Of a stretch of DNA of 23,030 nucleotides, positions 2,128 through 22,740 are shown in pieces (position 1 is the stretch's first letter; every line of letters starts with the position of its first letter). The DNA is taken from IMG/VR virus record IMGVR_UViG_3300032241_000787, positions 1-23,030 of that record; one strand, given 5' to 3'. The notes beneath the pieces are model-generated. The model was not told where the DNA came from and did no database searches. It saw only the letters and a list, made by a program, of their open reading frames with translations. The position numbers and the translations under genes were made by a program. Source of the stretch: a virus.

Positions 2128-3450
2128 TCAATTAATTATTTGCATAGTGTTATAATCATCCCCATACTTAACCTGGGTCACAAAACCATCTTGGTCTGTT
2201 ATTTCTTTTATTTTATTTATCAACTGTTTACCATCTTTCTTATTGTAGTCTATCAAGAATGAATCGTAAGTGTAAAGAACTAATTTACTTCTATAATCTT
2301 TCAATAGTTGTTGTAAATCTTTCATTACAATTATGTTCCTGTCTGTTTCATAAGCCTGTAATAGATAAGGTAACACCTGTGTCTTACTCTTTATCCCTTT
2401 GATAGGTCTTTTTGTTATTATTGACTTGATATAACCATTCTCATTATACTCAGTCCACAAACTGTTTCTTAATTCGTGAACCTTATTGAAGAATGCAAAG
2501 TTAGTGTATTTATTTGAATCATTGTATAAAATTTTAAAAGTTATTTTTTTACTCTCATTATGTTGATCTTCCGTAATCTGATCAACCTCAAAATACATCT
2601 TACCTAGGTGAGTGTGGATATCCTCACCATTGAAGTCATACCCTATTAAATTAGCAAGAATCCTAGGGTGATAGCTGCTGTAATCAAACTCCAATATAAA
2701 ATCATTGTTAGGTACAATCATTTCACGAGTACCATCAGTCTTATTCAATGCTCCGAAGTTAACATTATTAAAAGCGTTAGAGGGCCTACCTGTAGCAGTG
2801 TACTGATTGTAGTGTGTATACACCTTATCCCCATCGTGCATGTAGAGTAGGTTAGGTACATCAAACCCCTTAACCTTTATACCCTCTCTCTCTATGTTAT
2901 ACAAGACAGTGTTTAAAGCTTCATTGTAGAATGAAAAGTACTTCTTGGAATAAACATTGCTATTCAGTAATGACTTTTGGTCGATAATAAAGTTGTCATA
3001 CTTCTCTGCTAATTTAGATATAGGTACTATCCTGTTGATACAGGGATTTGAACCATTCTGTGAATATAGCCAAGTTTGGATTGGTTGATTATAGGATTCT
3101 AAGTCTAGTATCTCCCCTGTCTCTAGGAATTTAGCCGTTTTAAGGCAGATTAAGGGCATTTCTAGGTTTAAATTATACATAACCCTCTTTGCGTCATAAA
3201 CGTAAGCCTTGAGCACCTTATGCTTAAATAAGGCTAAAATGGACTCATGGTCTAGTGATAATGTTTCGGAGTGATTTACAGGCAATATAAAACCGGTTCT
3301 TGATTGGGTAGGTTTAATATAATAGGCGCACACATCCGTTAAGATGGGGTGATAGTTATCGTTGTATACTATCGGCTCAATAAAAGAATGCTCCAAATTA
3401 TATTCGGAGAACTTTTTTAGTTGCTCGGGTGTCTCTATTATGTAAAACAA
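2128..3450 (-). CDS. Compact, divergent family A DNA polymerase
   Basis: This 440-residue protein has the family A (Pol I) polymerase core. Visible motifs are TATGRPSNAFNNVNFG (218-233), TREMIVP (241-247), motif A FILEFDYSSYHPRI (251-264; catalytic Asp256), motif B KKITFKILYN (301-310; Lys301, Phe305 and Tyr309, matching E. coli Lys758, Phe762, Tyr766) and motif C LYTYDSFLIDY (392-402; Asp396). Motif C lacks the usual HDE: His is Tyr395 and Glu is Ser397. The expected motif B Arg is His297. The N-terminal 130 residues resemble the 3'-5' exonuclease fold but lack the DxE and NxxxD acidic residues, so proofreading is probably lost. Start is TTG; no ATG lies between the upstream stop and this codon. 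It follows the zinc-ribbon gene and overlaps closely with the next gene (TGAAATG). It is the likely replicative polymerase, though a repair or accessory role is possible. Confidence 0.88.
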   Translation of the reverse strand: MFYIIETPEQLKKFSEYNLEHSFIEPIVYNDNYHPILTDVCAYYIKPTQSRTGFILPVNHSETLSLDHESILALFKHKVLKAYVYDAKRVMYNLNLEMPLICLKTAKFLETGEILDLESYNQPIQTWLYSQNGSNPCINRIVPISKLAEKYDNFIIDQKSLLNSNVYSKKYFSFYNEALNTVLYNIEREGIKVKGFDVPNLLYMHDGDKVYTHYNQYTATGRPSNAFNNVNFGALNKTDGTREMIVPNNDFILEFDYSSYHPRILANLIGYDFNGEDIHTHLGKMYFEVDQITEDQHNESKKITFKILYNDSNKYTNFAFFNKVHELRNSLWTEYNENGYIKSIITKRPIKGIKSKTQVLPYLLQAYETDRNIIVMKDLQQLLKDYRSKLVLYTYDSFLIDYNKKDGKQLINKIKEITDQDGFVTQVKYGDDYNTMQIIN

Positions 3451-15588: not shown

Positions 15589-15600
15589 TTATAAATATCA
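15589..15600 (-). promoter_or_regulatory. Candidate late promoter box before the 584-aa gene
   Basis: The coding strand reads TGATATTTATAA, a full match to the recurring box. Its TGA is also the stop codon of the HNH gene. The core ends 22 bases before the next ATG. Confidence 0.5.
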
Positions 15601-16719
15601 ATTGGTTATGATTGGGCTACTTATTTCTTTTATATGTTTATCCCCTTTGTTAAGGTTACCAAGGTACTCTACACCATCTATCACGCGAGTAGTTGCAAAA
15701 AGAGGTTGTAAATTGGTATGGTGAAAGCATTCTTTTTGTTGGTTAGGGTTAGATAGATCAAAACTGGATACTGGTATTATATGGTCTATGTGCCATTCTG
15801 GCCCATAGTTATCCCAGGTCATGGTAGGTAGGAATCTGGCTTCAAGGTATTCTTTTAAATATCCAATGGTGCATCCTATTAATTCCATAGTCTTTGCAGA
15901 CTTCTTAGCTTTACCTCTCAAAGCATCTATAACCCTACCTCTTAGCCTCAGGGATAATCTATATTGTATATCTGTTTTATACCTCTCTACTTGCTTTTTT
16001 AGTATAGTACCCCTATTAATTTTAATGTATTCTCTATTATATTCTTTCTTCCTAGATAATATCTTAGGTGTTTTTGTACGCTCTCTTAATATATCTTTGT
16101 ACTTCTCTCTGTAGGCCTTCTTCTCTTCGCTGTTACAAGATTTACAGTTATAATCACGTCCATCTGCATTGACTCTTACTACACCAAAAGAGGTTATGCC
16201 TTTTTCCATCTTGCATTTACTACAAGATTTAATTTCCGGAGTAGAAACAAATTCTCTTTCTATATATTTTTTATCTTTTTTCTTCTTTTCTAAATATTTA
16301 CAAAATTTGCAAGATGATGTTAGCCCATCTATTTTGTAAGAATTCTTATAGTATTCAGATTTAGGTTTTAATATACCGCAGCTAGTGCACACTTTTTCTT
16401 CTACTTGTATATGAGTAGTCTTGGGTTTATCATACTTTTTCAAACGTTCTCTGTTACAGGTCTTACAATTACTATCTATACCTTTAGGTTTTCTTTTATC
16501 TTTGATAAATTCTTTGAAAGGTAGTGTCTGTTTACATTTAATGCAAAAAGATGTTTCACATTCTATATACCCTTCTTTTTGAATTTTTTGATGATACTTT
16601 TTTGAATCCTCATTTTGGCATTGTTTACATCTAGGCCTATAACTACCCCTTCTCTTTTCTAGGTTAAAGTTATCTAAACTCTTACCTATTTTACATTTAG
16701 TGCATATCTTAAGATCCAT
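15598..16719 (-). CDS. HNH endonuclease with four zinc-ribbon modules (likely homing)
   Basis: This 373-residue protein is probably a free-standing homing-type DNA endonuclease. The N-terminal half has four CxxC...CxxC modules, each with 21-22 residues between the pairs and about 53 residues apart: Cys 6/9-31/34, 59/62-85/88, 111/114-137/140 and 166/169-192/195. These should bind zinc and probably DNA. A basic linker follows (about 200-275). The C-terminus has the HNH nuclease core: WHIDHIIPVSSFDL (309-322; His310, Asp312, His313), HHTNLQPLFATT (333-344) and NLNKGDKH (355-362). About ten residues lie between the last two blocks, which are usually closer. It is wedged between the tail tube and a 584-aa gene, both probably virion genes, as expected of a mobile endonuclease. 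Its TGA stop overlaps the next gene's promoter box. Confidence 0.9.
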   Translation of the reverse strand: MDLKICTKCKIGKSLDNFNLEKRRGSYRPRCKQCQNEDSKKYHQKIQKEGYIECETSFCIKCKQTLPFKEFIKDKRKPKGIDSNCKTCNRERLKKYDKPKTTHIQVEEKVCTSCGILKPKSEYYKNSYKIDGLTSSCKFCKYLEKKKKDKKYIEREFVSTPEIKSCSKCKMEKGITSFGVVRVNADGRDYNCKSCNSEEKKAYREKYKDILRERTKTPKILSRKKEYNREYIKINRGTILKKQVERYKTDIQYRLSLRLRGRVIDALRGKAKKSAKTMELIGCTIGYLKEYLEARFLPTMTWDNYGPEWHIDHIIPVSSFDLSNPNQQKECFHHTNLQPLFATTRVIDGVEYLGNLNKGDKHIKEISSPIITN

Positions 16720-16798: not shown

Positions 16799-17284
16799 TC
16801 AATAATTTAAAACTAGTCCCGAGTGCTTGAGAGTAAGGTCAATTGTAGTATATGCCTCTCCCGAATAATCGTAAGAGCCATATTTTACATTTAGAGGAAA
16901 TGCTCTTTTAATAACCCACTCTCTTACAATATCATCTGCTGGACCTAGGATTTGTAAGTTAATGTCTTTGGTGTAAAAATCCTGATACCCGGCTCTGCCC
17001 GACAACAACTCGTATGACAATAAACTCCATTGTTCTACTGCAGCTGCTCCAGAAGGTGCAACAGGATCATACAATGACAAGGTGATGTCAGAGTATTTTC
17101 TTTTAGACCTTAGTGAGAAGTAGCTATTGATATAGTGAATATCAACGCTTGAGTCTTCCCAGCCTATACCATCTACTGTTTTGATTTGGTATGCAGGTAT
17201 ACCATCTATAATCATTATGAACCTGTGTTGCAATATCGGTTCAAATACAACTGGAAGGGTTTGAGTACTATCAAGAATAGGCAT
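16799..17284 (-). CDS. Tail tube protein (gp19-like)
   Basis: This 161-residue protein forms the inner tail tube through which DNA passes. Its size is close to T4 gp19 (163 residues). The layout matches the T4-type tube family: an N-terminal segment leading to HRFIMIIDGIPAYQIKTVDG, a central SDITLSLYDP strand followed by a loop, and a C-terminal part with WVIKRAFPLNVKYGSYDYSG and a closing TIDLTLKHSG strand. It follows the sheath gene by 44 bases with no box or terminator between, so the two are probably co-transcribed. ATG start without a Shine-Dalgarno sequence. A hairpin follows the stop codon. Confidence 0.93.
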   Translation of the reverse strand: MPILDSTQTLPVVFEPILQHRFIMIIDGIPAYQIKTVDGIGWEDSSVDIHYINSYFSLRSKRKYSDITLSLYDPVAPSGAAAVEQWSLLSYELLSGRAGYQDFYTKDINLQILGPADDIVREWVIKRAFPLNVKYGSYDYSGEAYTTIDLTLKHSGLVLNY

Positions 17285-17328: not shown

Positions 17329-20300
17329 TTAGCTGAATGTTACTCCTTGTGGTGTGATATCAAACTCAAGTAAGATAAACTCTATGCTCATTGTTGGTAC
17401 AATCTGAATCTTACAGTTCAAGATGTGGTTAGCAATATCGCTATCTGTGTTGTTAGTTGCATCACAAGTAGTTTTGAATGCTGTGATACCTTGATTTTGT
17501 TGTACGTTCTGTAAGTAAGGGTTGATCTTATTTAAGAAAGAAGCTCTGGTTGCATTAGAGTTTTGTTCGAACACGAAGTCGTTAGCAATGTTAGAGATGT
17601 AATCTTTCAATGCGATTAACAATCTTCTTACGTTCAATCTGTTCAAGGCAGTGTTTTGCTTAGACAATGTCTTTTGGCCCCAGATTACTACACCTGTGTT
17701 AGGAGTCTTAATGATTGGGTTGATATTAGCATTGTAAAGAAGACCTTGCTCAGTAGTTGAAAGTCTGTTCTTGGTATCGATTGCTCCACCTAGAGTACCT
17801 CTACCTGTACCTGCTACAGCAAACCATGGTGCAGCGTTAGTATCGGTGTAAGCTATTGCTTGAGGAACCAATACGGTTGGAGGTACGTAGATGTTCTTAG
17901 ATGATCCGATGTCTCTTACTTTAACCCAAGGGTAGTAAGTTGCTCCGTATGTACTATTTAATCCTGAAGCTACTTCTACAGCTGTGTTAACACCTTCGTT
18001 TACACCTGTCAAATCGCTTAAGTATACAGCATCTCCTCTTTGTTCTACCATTGATTGTGCGTATTCAGTAACTGCTCCGTGGTATTGGTTGATGATACCT
18101 GGCATTACTAAGATACCGTATTTGTATAGTTGAGTATTAGACAAGATGTTGATTGCTTGTGCAAATGCTGCATATCCTGCTGTTTGGTTAGATGATAGGT
18201 CAAATCCGAATACGTTAGTACCATCTGTAGAGATGTTAGCTCCTATATTCTTGATGGTTTGATAAGACATACCATCTGTACCACCTTGGAAAGGAAGTAT
18301 GAATTTGTTATCCCCTGCAGGTATAGTGAATGGTATGTTATTACCATATGCAGCTTCCAAAGGAATTGGGTTAAGGTAGTTCGCATTATCTGGATTAGTG
18401 AAATCAAATCCAGAATAGATGTAAGAACCTGAGTTAGAACTTACGTATGTTGCTTGAGGTAAGTGGTATAGTGAACCAAATCCAGCGAATGTTTCGAATA
18501 AAGGTTCGTTACCATTTATGACTACATTGTTAGGTATGTTTTCACTTATTACCGCATCTCCTATTATTACTCTGATGTAATTAGATACATTATCAAAATC
18601 TCCTTCTGATACTACCTTATTACTTACACTGTCATAGTAGTTGTATCTGTCACCGATTGCAGTTCCGATGTAATTAGCATCGTTAGGGTTAAGAGTTACC
18701 CCTGTGTATTGTTCTAAGATTACAGGTGTTTTATCTGTATCGCTGTATTGTCTTACTAATACATCGAACTTAGTGTATACAGTAGAATCAGGATTTACAG
18801 TTATGTTTGCAATTGCAACTTTAACGTCTGTATTTCCAGAGAATCCTTGAGCTCTATGTGCGAATTGGAATAATCTGTTGCTGTTGTTATCAACTACCCA
18901 TGGTGTTTCAGCATAGTCGTACCCTTCTGCATTTGAAGATGTGAAGGTACATTTACCACTTTGAAGTATTAGGCTTACTGGTGTAGTAGTACTCAAAGAT
19001 GCGCTTTGGAAACTCAAATAAGCGAAAGCACCTCCTGTAGAAGCAGCAGCATTTGTTCCTAACACATTTGCATAGTAGTTAGGGTCTGTGTTGTACATAG
19101 ATACATTTGCTGTTTGGTTTACTTGGTTACCAGCTATAATAAGGCCTAAGCTACTGTTTGATGAACCAGCTATTTTAGAGTTGTTTAAACTTGCTAGTTT
19201 AGGGTATTTATTCAATGAAGGGTGTAATACTGCAATTACACTTCCAGGTACTGCTGTAACTGGGTCTACACCCCCTACAAGTACTGATTGAGATACTGAA
19301 GCAACTACACCTGTTGAAGTTGGTGCAGGGCCTGCATAGTATCCATTGTAGATTGAACCTGTATAGATTGAAGTTAATATTACGTTGCTTCCTGACAAAG
19401 AACCTGTAATGCCTGTAAGGGTTGAGTATCCATTTATCAAGCTTACCAAGTTATTGAATTGGGATAATTGACTTCCTGTGTTAACAAAGTAGTTAGCATC
19501 TAAAGCTTGTGTCCCAGAGTTACCGTATATAATTTGATATGAACCAGTATTTCCAGTTACTCCCCCTGTAAAAGGTATAGTAGTAACAGGTAATTGAGGA
19601 GCTGCATCTAGACCATATTTAAAATTATATGCACCTTGACTACTCCACCCATTAGAATTCCCACTAGAATCGTACATTTGGAAAGTAAGGATAGGAGTGT
19701 AATTATTTCCTGATGCACCCGATCCTGCGGGAAACTGCACATTTATGGTGTAACCATTATCGAATGTACTTAAAGTGAATCCTTGATTACCATTTGAATT
19801 TACATTTGCAATAAAATTAGTGACAGCTGTTGCTATGTCAGTATCTGAAGATTGTACCCTGTAAGATCCTAAAGTAGCGAATTGGTTGTTGCCGTCTGCT
19901 ATAACTAAGGATGCTATAGCGTAGTTGCCCCAACTATCTGGAACAAAGGTTGGGAAGTTAACGCCCCAAGTATAACCTACTGCTTGTGTTTCTCCGTAAG
20001 TACCATCACTGCCACCAGATAATGTTGTTGAGGTATTTTCTGCAGAGTAATAAATGGATATAGAATTACCACTCGACCCTTTACCTTTAGGTGCAAATAA
20101 AGTCAGAGTTCCAGCACTATATGATGCACTGTATGCACTTGTGACATTCGCACTAGTGGCAGCCGTTGCTCCAACTTGTGCTTGAGTTAATCCTGCCATA
20201 TCAAACACAACACTAAGTTCTAGATTAGTAGCATCATATAAACTTATAGTTCCGTTTGGACTAGACGGTATGGCAAATGATGCTGAAGCTCTTGTTTCTG

Positions 20301-21069
20301 CTACAGACGAGAAAGTGATTGTAGTACCGTTTAAAGCAGCACCTTTTCCGGCAGGAGCAGTAACTGTCAGTGAATTAGTTCCTGTTATAGAGCTTGTGTA
20401 AGCTAGTGAATTGCTAGCTAAAGTTGTATTGATTGCAGAAACTAAATCAGTTGTGGCTAAAGCTGTAGTTTGTGTGTATGAACCTAGTACTGTGCTTCCT
20501 GATTGAGGATCGTTAAGTGTCAAGGTGATGTTGCTACCTATGTTACCTGTACCATTTACATACAAGGTTGTGCTTGCAGGAACATCTACTACTACAGAAC
20601 CTGAAACAACTACAGGAGTTGGATTGTATCCGTAGAAGTATTGAGTACTAGCACCTGCTATTGTAATCACTTGTTGACCAGAGCCTGACAAAGATGATAC
20701 TAATGATGCTGTAGGGATAGCTGTGTAAGCTTTAAGGCCTACAGATGCAGATACTGCAGGCTGTACAATCGCAGCTAAAGATTTAGCCGGAGTGAAACCC
20801 CAACCTCCATTACCTAATACCCTCGTTACATTGATTGAGGTACCAGCTTGCAGGTAGTTATACACAGTTTGTGGTACATACGAATTTGAAGTGTCTGTTC
20901 CAAACACTGCACTAAATTGTCCTGGAGACTGGATACTTGTTGGAACATAAGCCTCTCCTTTCTGTGTAGGCCCTATGATGGCACATCCATCAGGGATTTG
21001 GATTGGGGCTATGAACGACTGGTTTACCTCGCTGGTATATACTCCTGGGGTTGAGATTGTTTCGGTCAT
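17329..21069 (-). CDS. Tail sheath protein (gp18-like) with large repeat insertion
   Basis: This is the contractile tail sheath subunit that surrounds the tube and shortens during injection. The N-terminus (about 1-100) has the family pattern: TPGVYTSEVNQSFIAP, then AIIGPTQKGEAYVPTSI, then a VTRVLG strand. The C-terminal half (about 920-1246) carries the conserved sheath domain, including GILVMPGI (985-992), APWFAVAGTGRGTL (1080-1093), VVIWGQKTL (1127-1135), LNVRRLLIALKDYI (1145-1158), FVFEQN, and the final strand near IEFILLEFDITPQG. At 1246 residues it is about twice T4 gp18 (659). The excess is mainly residues about 155-603, which look like four tandem beta-rich domains. It is followed 44 bases later by the tail tube gene, the usual order. 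ATG start, no Shine-Dalgarno sequence, late-type box upstream. The identification is secure; the insertion's function is unknown. Confidence 0.96.
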   Translation of the reverse strand: MTETISTPGVYTSEVNQSFIAPIQIPDGCAIIGPTQKGEAYVPTSIQSPGQFSAVFGTDTSNSYVPQTVYNYLQAGTSINVTRVLGNGGWGFTPAKSLAAIVQPAVSASVGLKAYTAIPTASLVSSLSGSGQQVITIAGASTQYFYGYNPTPVVVSGSVVVDVPASTTLYVNGTGNIGSNITLTLNDPQSGSTVLGSYTQTTALATTDLVSAINTTLASNSLAYTSSITGTNSLTVTAPAGKGAALNGTTITFSSVAETRASASFAIPSSPNGTISLYDATNLELSVVFDMAGLTQAQVGATAATSANVTSAYSASYSAGTLTLFAPKGKGSSGNSISIYYSAENTSTTLSGGSDGTYGETQAVGYTWGVNFPTFVPDSWGNYAIASLVIADGNNQFATLGSYRVQSSDTDIATAVTNFIANVNSNGNQGFTLSTFDNGYTINVQFPAGSGASGNNYTPILTFQMYDSSGNSNGWSSQGAYNFKYGLDAAPQLPVTTIPFTGGVTGNTGSYQIIYGNSGTQALDANYFVNTGSQLSQFNNLVSLINGYSTLTGITGSLSGSNVILTSIYTGSIYNGYYAGPAPTSTGVVASVSQSVLVGGVDPVTAVPGSVIAVLHPSLNKYPKLASLNNSKIAGSSNSSLGLIIAGNQVNQTANVSMYNTDPNYYANVLGTNAAASTGGAFAYLSFQSASLSTTTPVSLILQSGKCTFTSSNAEGYDYAETPWVVDNNSNRLFQFAHRAQGFSGNTDVKVAIANITVNPDSTVYTKFDVLVRQYSDTDKTPVILEQYTGVTLNPNDANYIGTAIGDRYNYYDSVSNKVVSEGDFDNVSNYIRVIIGDAVISENIPNNVVINGNEPLFETFAGFGSLYHLPQATYVSSNSGSYIYSGFDFTNPDNANYLNPIPLEAAYGNNIPFTIPAGDNKFILPFQGGTDGMSYQTIKNIGANISTDGTNVFGFDLSSNQTAGYAAFAQAINILSNTQLYKYGILVMPGIINQYHGAVTEYAQSMVEQRGDAVYLSDLTGVNEGVNTAVEVASGLNSTYGATYYPWVKVRDIGSSKNIYVPPTVLVPQAIAYTDTNAAPWFAVAGTGRGTLGGAIDTKNRLSTTEQGLLYNANINPIIKTPNTGVVIWGQKTLSKQNTALNRLNVRRLLIALKDYISNIANDFVFEQNSNATRASFLNKINPYLQNVQQNQGITAFKTTCDATNNTDSDIANHILNCKIQIVPTMSIEFILLEFDITPQGVTFS
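19261..20607 (-). repeat. Tandem beta-rich domain repeats inserted in the sheath
   Basis: Sheath residues about 155-603 appear to hold four divergent copies of one domain. Three share a glycine turn: TAPAGKGAALNGTTITF (237-253), FAPKGKGSSGNSISIYY (325-341) and QFPAGSGASGNNYTPILTF (445-463). The fourth is weaker (around 566-580). Copies two to four end in a GG motif: TTLSGGSDG (348-356), IPFTGGVTG (498-506) and VLVGGVDP (596-603). A similar aGxxGN...GG pattern occurs in some other phage sheath proteins. Boundaries are by eye. Confidence 0.65.
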
Positions 21070-21145: not shown

Positions 21146-21682
21146 TTAAGCTCCATTTCCATACTGACCATTAAGATACTGTTGGTCTATAGATGAAAGT
21201 GGAGATATAGAACCTAAATTTACAGTTACAGATCCATATAAAGGATACAATACAGTTACAGGTGATATTCTAGCCCCATTCTGTATTGTTAAATATTGTG
21301 TAGACGTTACAGGTTTTCCCTCAAGTGTGGTAGAGTTTATGTAAACATACGCAGATACATCTGTATCGACAAAATAATCACTTCCTATTATTGAAATAGT
21401 TATATCATATTGATAGTCAGTCCCTTCTTCAGAGTATGCACTAGCAATTATATAAATAGGTGTAATGGTTGGCCGAGAGGTATATATTTGACCCCAGGTA
21501 GGGCATTGGTTAGATGTTATCGGTAAACTATTAATGTTCATATACTTCATTGCATCACCTGCAGTTATAGCATAGTTGGTTTGTGGGATGCCGGGACTAC
21601 GTAATGAAAACGTACCATTAGATATGCTTTGTGATGCTTCTAAGTATGTGGTTAGATAGTTAGTGAATGCTGACCCAGTCAA
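21146..21682 (-). CDS. Putative virion protein of unknown function, TTG start
   Basis: This 178-residue protein is not recognised. It is rich in Thr, Ser, Ile and Tyr, appears mostly beta-stranded, and has no membrane segment or cysteine pair, which fits a structural or fibre-associated protein. The first usable start is a TTG five bases after the fibre stop codon. The frame is closed just upstream and the first internal ATG comes about 45 residues later, after sequence that looks coding. Translation is therefore probably coupled to the fibre gene. Position between the fibre and the sheath suggests a tail-completion, fibre-connecting or neck role, but that is inference from context only. Confidence 0.72.
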   Translation of the reverse strand: MTGSAFTNYLTTYLEASQSISNGTFSLRSPGIPQTNYAITAGDAMKYMNINSLPITSNQCPTWGQIYTSRPTITPIYIIASAYSEEGTDYQYDITISIIGSDYFVDTDVSAYVYINSTTLEGKPVTSTQYLTIQNGARISPVTVLYPLYGSVTVNLGSISPLSSIDQQYLNGQYGNGA

Positions 21683-21687
21683 AATTA

Positions 21688-22740
21688 TTATTTTTTAAGT
21701 TCTTCTATTTGGGATTGGAGTTCTTGTATTGCTTTAAGTAGTATTCCAACTGTGTTACCGGTATCCATTACATTGTGATTCTTGGTAGAAAATACTTCAT
21801 TGGTATCATCAGCTATAAATCCTACCTTTTGTGTACCTGGGTCTGACTTATAGGTATATGCTACAACCTCTACTGTTTTTATTAAATCTAATGCACTACT
21901 TGTGAATGGTACTATGTTATCTTTAAGACTTCTTAAAGAAGATTGTATGAATCCTGCAGAGGTAATTGTTCCTGTGGTTGTTTGTGATCCACTTACTATA
22001 AATTGCGTAGTGGACGGATTACTTCCTGATACTATGACTGAGCTTCCGGACACAAAGCAATATGTAGTTCCGGTTGTTATGAATGAATAGTTAGGTGTAG
22101 GTACGCTGTTTATTCTATTGGCAAAAGAACTAGAATCCGTTTTGTATGAGGATGTGAACGAATTGAATGAAGCTACAGTGTTGAAACCACTTGTGCTTAT
22201 TGCTGTCCATCCTCCGGTTCCATTCATAAAAGTATTTGCATCTGCATTTAGATTTACAGCTGCAGCTGTTCCTATGTTAGATGCTGTAACTGCCCCTGTT
22301 AGCCATAGAGTAGGCCCATAGATAGTCCCTGTAAAGGTTGAAAAACTTGAGTTAACGTAAATATTATCTAATAAACCCCCTCCCTCCACTGCAAATTGTA
22401 AATTTTTAAACCCTGTTACATTTGGTCTTAAAATGTAAGCATATGCCGTATCGGTCCTAGTTAAATGTAAATCTTGAGAAGTATTGATTATGCCATACAC
22501 ATTTGTGCCGGTAATTGTAGCTGCAGTAACATTCCCTCCTACAGTTATGTTACCTGAGCCACTTATACTACCTGACACATACAGACTTGCTGGAGAAGTG
22601 GTTTTTATCCCTATACCGAGAGAGCCACTTATAAGTAAGTTATAACTTCCTGATGCAGTTAATGCGTCTACTAGTTGGGTTACATCAGCTGGTTGGACTA
22701 TATTACCAGTTATTATGTTTGCTTTGGATAATTGTGCCAT
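21688..22740 (-). CDS. Tail fibre/spike with C-terminal S74 intramolecular chaperone
   Basis: This 350-residue protein is a trimeric tail-fibre-type protein. Residues 30-260 are rich in Gly, Ser, Thr and short beta repeats such as ISGSLGIGIKTTSPASLYVS, a pattern common in fibre shafts. Residues about 264-350 match the Peptidase_S74 intramolecular chaperone. The SSLRSLKDNI segment (267-276) fits the family motif SDxRLKxNI, with Ser268 as the likely self-cleavage residue and Lys273 as its partner. The family's Asp and Arg are replaced by Leu269 and Ser271. A terminal helix (about 331-350) should form the usual three-stranded coiled coil. In this family the chaperone drives trimer folding and is then cleaved off. 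The gene starts with ATG, preceded by a late-type box, and is followed 5 bases after its stop by a TTG-started gene. It could equally be a baseplate decoration rather than a receptor-binding fibre. Confidence 0.87.
   Translation of the reverse strand: MAQLSKANIITGNIVQPADVTQLVDALTASGSYNLLISGSLGIGIKTTSPASLYVSGSISGSGNITVGGNVTAATITGTNVYGIINTSQDLHLTRTDTAYAYILRPNVTGFKNLQFAVEGGGLLDNIYVNSSFSTFTGTIYGPTLWLTGAVTASNIGTAAAVNLNADANTFMNGTGGWTAISTSGFNTVASFNSFTSSYKTDSSSFANRINSVPTPNYSFITTGTTYCFVSGSSVIVSGSNPSTTQFIVSGSQTTTGTITSAGFIQSSLRSLKDNIVPFTSSALDLIKTVEVVAYTYKSDPGTQKVGFIADDTNEVFSTKNHNVMDTGNTVGILLKAIQELQSQIEELKK

Follow-up and report, generated by a model that had tools for sequence, protein, structure and literature searches.

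Large phages commonly carry extra domains in their tail sheaths, and the origin and purpose of these domains are unsettled. The window analyzed here, a 23,030-nucleotide stretch of viral DNA (IMG/VR record IMGVR_UViG_3300032241_000787, positions 1 to 23,030), raises this question through a single gene, for which the initial annotation had described a tail sheath doubled in size by tandem beta-rich domains. What is the additional sequence, how is it distributed among related sheaths, and what could it do on the tail?

A conserved sheath gene with a large insert

The sheath was said to have 1246 residues against 659 in T4, and both lengths were borne out. Judged by its sequence matches, the open reading frame is a contractile tail sheath of the T4 superfamily: it contains PF04984 (residues 972-1134, E = 1e-13, 51.5 bits versus a curated cut-off of 31.4) and PF17482 (residues 1138-1239, E = 2e-12, 47.6 bits versus 26.9), and it matches the tail sheath family phrog_23 in PHROG (E = 2e-60). 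Both Pfam domains fall within the final ~280 residues, while the sheath profile of the clade aligns with residues 3-83 of T4 gp18. The tail tube gene comes after the sheath gene, with baseplate-type genes farther downstream (Table 1).

The conserved core is interrupted by an insert of ~505 residues (residues ~102-607), beginning at ~20766 in the window. The span first assigned to the extra domains, 19261-20607, corresponds to residues ~155-603; it captured the insert but placed its start too late.

Two other genes in the window deserve mention. An endonuclease VII / HNH-family gene (15598-16719, minus strand) separates the tube gene from the tail gene that comes next; it is absent at the equivalent place in the related contig L003 and is probably a homing-type insertion. 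Beyond the tail genes, a 440-aa protein (2128-3450, minus strand) matches a DNA polymerase PHROG in its C-terminal half only and appears to represent a short or split polymerase gene.

Table 1 Features of the sheath gene and its neighbor in the window, ordered from the start of the sheath protein
Feature	Residues	Window position	Strand	Evidence
Tail sheath gene	1-1246	17329..21069	-	Pfam PF04984 and PF17482; phrog_23
N-terminal sheath core	1-101	20767..21069	-	Profile alignment to T4 gp18 residues 3-83
Copy D, first part (putative)	102-150	20620..20766	-	First third of single-domain profile, 0/1000 shuffles; hhalign E 4e-4
Copy A (putative)	157-262	20284..20601	-	Resembles copy B (hhalign E 2e-4) and single-domain profile (2/1000)
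Copy B (putative)	261-358	19996..20289	-	AlphaFold pLDDT 70.9, pTM 0.65; flagellin and Milano sheath fold matches
Exchanged block, copies B and C	~266-495	19585..20274	-	59-71% DNA identity to L002/L003 inside, 90-100% outside
Copy C (putative)	371-506	19552..19959	-	Shared strand-helix-strand order, G-x-x-G-N turn; weakest by profile
Copy D, second part (putative)	507-605	19255..19551	-	Remainder of single-domain profile, 0/1000 shuffles; hhalign E 5e-5
Mid-sheath, resuming past the insert	608-960	18190..19248	-	Aligned in no-insert relatives
Conserved sheath domains	972-1239	17353..18156	-	PF04984, PF17482
Tail tube gene		16799..17284	-	phrog_4542, E 1.5e-18; PF06841 under its cut-off

Distribution of the insert among related sheaths

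Using the insert to scan IMG/VR, we recovered just two other contigs that have it, L002 and L003, at 90% and 89% identity. A tblastn search with the insert alone against 50,697 phage records gave no match, and a scan of the genome contigs database gave no relatives. Because three contigs carry the insert, two of them from other metagenomes, we ruled out an assembly accident as its source.

For comparison we used sheaths with the same flanks, obtained from a clade scan. In 13 of them (L014, L093-L100, L104, L106, L110 and L121; 742-787 aa), the first flank joins the second directly; the nearest of these is L014, with 742 aa and 56% identity, and the other 12 span 748-787 aa. A single domain of ~140 residues occupies the insert site in four more (L020, L107, L108 and L109; sheaths of 883-885 aa), and scans with L107, L108 and L020 as queries returned no additional one-domain sheaths. 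The initial annotation had taken sheaths of equal length throughout the related phages as evidence against its reading; the close relatives are instead ~500 aa shorter. In a tree of the sheath core, the window, L002 and L003 together form the sister group of L014, which has no insert (support 100/100). The one-domain sheaths, all four, sit in a separate branch, and this topology requires three copy-number changes. The sheaths of L016, L019, L022 and L028 carry extra beta-rich-looking sequence elsewhere in the outer region, apparently as separate insertions.

Divergent copies of one domain within the insert

We compared four candidate copies within the insert, A to D, with D divided into two parts (Table 1). 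Against 500 shuffles, pairwise similarity reached p = 0.004 for A-B, 0.006 for A-C, 0.042 for B-C and 0.068 for C-D, with none above shuffles for A-D and B-D; hhalign gave E = 2e-4 for A-B, 0.034 for A-C and 0.043 for B-C. The repeat signal is therefore above chance, though weak for each pair.

A profile built from the one-domain relatives only (L020, L107, L108 and L109, where the domain lies at the same site) matched the insert in two pieces: its first third aligned with residues 102-149 and most of the remainder with residues 516-590, and no shuffle did as well when the pieces were shuffled apart (0/1000 for each). The same profile matched A, B and C more weakly (2/1000, 4/1000 and 1/1000 shuffles as good, respectively), and a control stretch of the core was no match (91/1000). 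When the whole insert was shuffled together, one shuffle in 1000 scored 26.0 bits, exceeding the best real match of 24.5 bits, so we regard the evidence for the repeat and its split copy as good rather than overwhelming. An earlier profile, from seven supposed single-domain relatives, was dropped; the sites differed, the sequences were misaligned and it matched nothing. Weak Pfam matches encountered in the analysis (Protein L B1, DuffyBP_N and Poly_export) and weak PDB sequence matches were judged to be chance.

GG motifs end three copies (B, C and D), as had been noted from the sequence. A G-x-G-x-x-G-N type turn had been described as clear in three copies; the G-x-x-G-N type turn is clear in B and C but degenerate in A and D. 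By these comparisons A, B and the split D appear alike beyond chance, with C marginal and the least certain. The proposal of four divergent copies of one beta-rich domain therefore holds for several divergent copies but not for four simple tandem ones, since the fourth seems to consist of two parts that enclose the other three. Read most simply, an ancestral single domain would have been opened mid-way and would now hold three more copies inside it. The copies are mutually just 15-27% identical, which rules out the recent duplication that had been suggested.

Predicted fold of the copies

An AlphaFold model of the whole insert, from three sequences, was poor (pLDDT 38.6) and for this reason lends no support to the idea that A, C and D have equal folds. 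The matches it gave in the PDB (antibody chains, rmsd >15) were set aside as meaningless given such a model. Its secondary structure has strands-helix-strands repeats in A, B and C. All copies were aligned together with the relatives (A7), and within the turn a single G and a single N are strictly conserved in each of the 15 rows. Copy B modeled alone from this alignment, an input that presupposes homology of the copies, had three strands, one helix and three strands (scores in Table 1). Its top PDB match was flagellin FliC (4nx9, prob 0.99, TMq 0.59), followed by the Milano sheath (8fqc/8fop, prob 0.72-0.82, E 0.13), and the second match in a viral structure library was the 7-7-1 tail sheath; in neither the PDB nor the viral library did a match reach E 0.001.

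Sequence profiles gave related results. The single domain of L107 exceeds the cut-off of Pfam Flagellin_IN (PF07196; 26.0 versus 22.7 bits) and that of L108 nearly does, and none of the window's own copies passed the curated cut-off. The 15-row profile scored 12.7 bits against the sheath extension domain (SED) of Milano, with 2/500 shuffles as good; a PDB sequence search for similarity to this SED gave no match up to E 10. In the sheath of Flavobacterium phage immuto, which is outside the alignment, the profile found a single copy at 33.2 bits versus a shuffle maximum of 12.1. It had no match in the no-insert sheaths tested, and no sequence similarity to domain I of T4 gp18 was detectable (167/500 shuffles as good). 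From the copy-B model and these matches, we propose that the copies share a flagellin-IN-like beta-alpha-beta fold.

A different account would dispense with true repeats altogether: the insert would be one large S/T/G/N-rich beta region in which composition and common beta-turn motifs create apparent copies. The weak pairwise similarities, including the lack of any between D and either A or B, and the poor whole-insert model agree with this account. We nevertheless consider it very unlikely, given that profiles from other phages match each copy beyond same-composition shuffles while the core and no-insert controls do not match, and that the order of helix and strands recurs in A, B and C.

Exchange of a two-copy block

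Between the window and L002 or L003, sheath DNA identity drops sharply at the boundaries of the B-C pair, and inside this block L002 and L003 match each other. Here the window differs from both by dN 0.36-0.46 and dS 0.84-1.05, compared with dS of 0.01-0.23 elsewhere in the gene. The dN/dS of ~0.43 inside the block gives no direct sign of positive selection; with the high dS and the sharp edges, it indicates at the sequence level that an old allele of B-C was brought in whole. The exchange was recent: the contigs are 90-100% identical in the remainder of the sheath gene and differ by 30-40% across B-C. Diversification of B-C by point changes was ruled out by the same ratio and edges. Between L108 and L109, divergence within the gene is likewise highest in the single domain, at 9.9% versus 0-4.7%.

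Could the insert be functionless, an outer loop of the sheath that tolerates insertions and has passively gained and exchanged modules? Several relatives do have extra sequence at differing places in the outer region, and the additional domains of T4 were considered nonessential for sheath formation (PMC9230969). However, ~500 extra residues would be costly in a protein that ranks among the most abundant of the tail, and dN/dS across the insert ranges from 0.09 to 0.44, which argues that it is kept under constraint; we regard neutral carriage as distinctly unlikely.

Position on the tail and possible roles

With its start at residue ~102, the insert interrupts the outer body domain where Milano has its SED, which is external (residues 91-203; PMC10811340), and T4 gp18 its domain I, which protrudes and is outside the subunit contacts (residues 98-188; PMC3004832). 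From the homology of this site we infer that the insert faces outward. The T4 tail has 138 sheath subunits (PMC3004832), and the modules are almost certainly on the outside of the tail in hundreds of copies, in keeping with the initial annotation. By the same analogy they most likely take no part in contraction and are dispensable for it.

The modules have an S/T/G/N-rich, charge-poor composition and are free of cysteines. Next to the sheath gene, an S74-chaperone fibre-like gene (21688-22740, minus strand) and the 178-aa gene between the two (21146-21682, minus strand) are mosaic among the same three contigs, some blocks being 99% identical to L002 and 55-71% to L003, with one block reversed. 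The composition, the mosaicism of the fibre-like gene and the exchange of B-C all fit surface modules that would contact the exterior.

Two other roles on the tail surface have to be weighed. The extra modules might instead cement the sheath, with contacts to neighboring subunits that stabilize the virion or its extended sheath in place of contacts with the host. Such a role has been proposed for additional sheath domains, domain II of phage 812 being a contact between neighboring subunits (PMC9230969), and the Milano sheath is cross-linked for strength (PMC10811340). Cementing nonetheless seems unlikely here: the modules have no cysteines for cross-links of the Milano type, T4 domain I makes no subunit contacts at the equivalent site, relatives do without the modules, and wholesale exchange of B-C in a nearly constant sheath fits poorly with precise contacts.

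Alternatively, the phage's own fibres may dock on the modules, which would then co-evolve with the fibre-like gene and its mosaic blocks. T4 domain I binds the retracted long tail fibres and the baseplate (PMC3004832), the Milano tailspike binds the sheath (PMC10811340), and the fibre-like gene and B-C are both mosaic. Their blocks do not co-vary, as L002 agrees with the window over most of the fibre-like gene yet has a different B-C, although this counter-evidence is weak because it comes from three contigs only. To us docking appears improbable, on a par with neutral carriage.

The best overall explanation, and one we hold to be reasonably probable, is a multiplied outer domain, its fourth copy split, that provides exchangeable surface modules. 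An otherwise ordinary T4-superfamily sheath would have had its outermost inserted domain, at the position of T4 domain I and the Milano SED, multiplied; one ancestral flagellin-IN-like domain, interrupted mid-way by three more copies, would yield about four modules per subunit. The sequence comparisons above show the insert and where it lies, that close relatives lack it or have one copy, a split fourth copy matched by profile and the replacement of the B-C block. The conserved core would drive contraction while the modules project from the tail wall and decorate the tail. There they may touch the host surface or polymers around it weakly but many times over, glycan binding as suggested in the initial annotation being one possibility, or alter the outer face of the tail, a role we liken to that of flagellin's variable outer domains. 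The shaft of the tail is itself likely to bear an outer coat that can change. A stronger version, in which the shaft and not just the fibres bears a recombination-swapped nested domain array that acts as an adhesion or shielding coat and evolves alongside the adjacent fibre genes, is possible but rather doubtful.

Comparison with known sheath systems

Multidomain sheaths as large as this one are already known, up to 1283 aa. The 'Type 3' multidomain sheaths include those of LacPavin_0818_WC45 (1283 aa), Mad1_20_16 (1248 aa) and Atu_ph07 (1086 aa) (Evseev et al. 2022, PMC9230969); like the window's, they are very large, with several added beta domains that lie away from the tube and in some cases combine two regions of the chain. 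Adhesion or stability was proposed there for additional sheath domains, with no mention of domain repeats within a sheath or of exchange between near-identical phages. We found no report of the multiplication of one sheath domain in open-licence papers. As far as we searched, what is new is a copy number that varies by grades at one site within a single clade, together with a split copy and a block of two domains that has been swapped. With none, one or about four copies at one site and a natural exchange of two copies, the clade makes the role of outer domains, be it adsorption, stability or nothing, testable.

Milano and 7-7-1, whose sheaths are among the best fold matches of copy B, carry an external domain at the same insertion point, with a strand-helix-strand motif and G..GN. 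Milano has one SED copy and a disulfide network, whereas the window has about four copies, one of them split and all cysteine-free. T4 domain I shares the insertion point within the outer body domain but is single, binds retracted tail fibres and is not detectably similar in sequence. The outer region of flagellin FliC gave the top fold match and Flagellin_IN a match above cut-off in L107; flagellin forms a different polymer, however, and the window copies have no direct match to PF07196.

Two contigs (L026:5001-10176 and L074:688-6114) have two adjacent tandem sheath genes, of 812 + 881 aa and 853 + 944 aa; some phages are known to have such pairs (PMC9230969). A tandem array clearer than the window's occurs at another place in the sheath of the Pseudomonas putida phage vB_PpuM-Peetri (947 aa; L009:2147-4990), in which four domains of 88-108 aa (pairwise z 6-14) precede the conserved sheath domain, unlike in the window, and show borderline similarity to the window copies. 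Flavobacterium phage vB_FspM_immuto, an isolated relative whose 709-aa sheath has the same domain in the same region in one copy only, offers a possible laboratory system.
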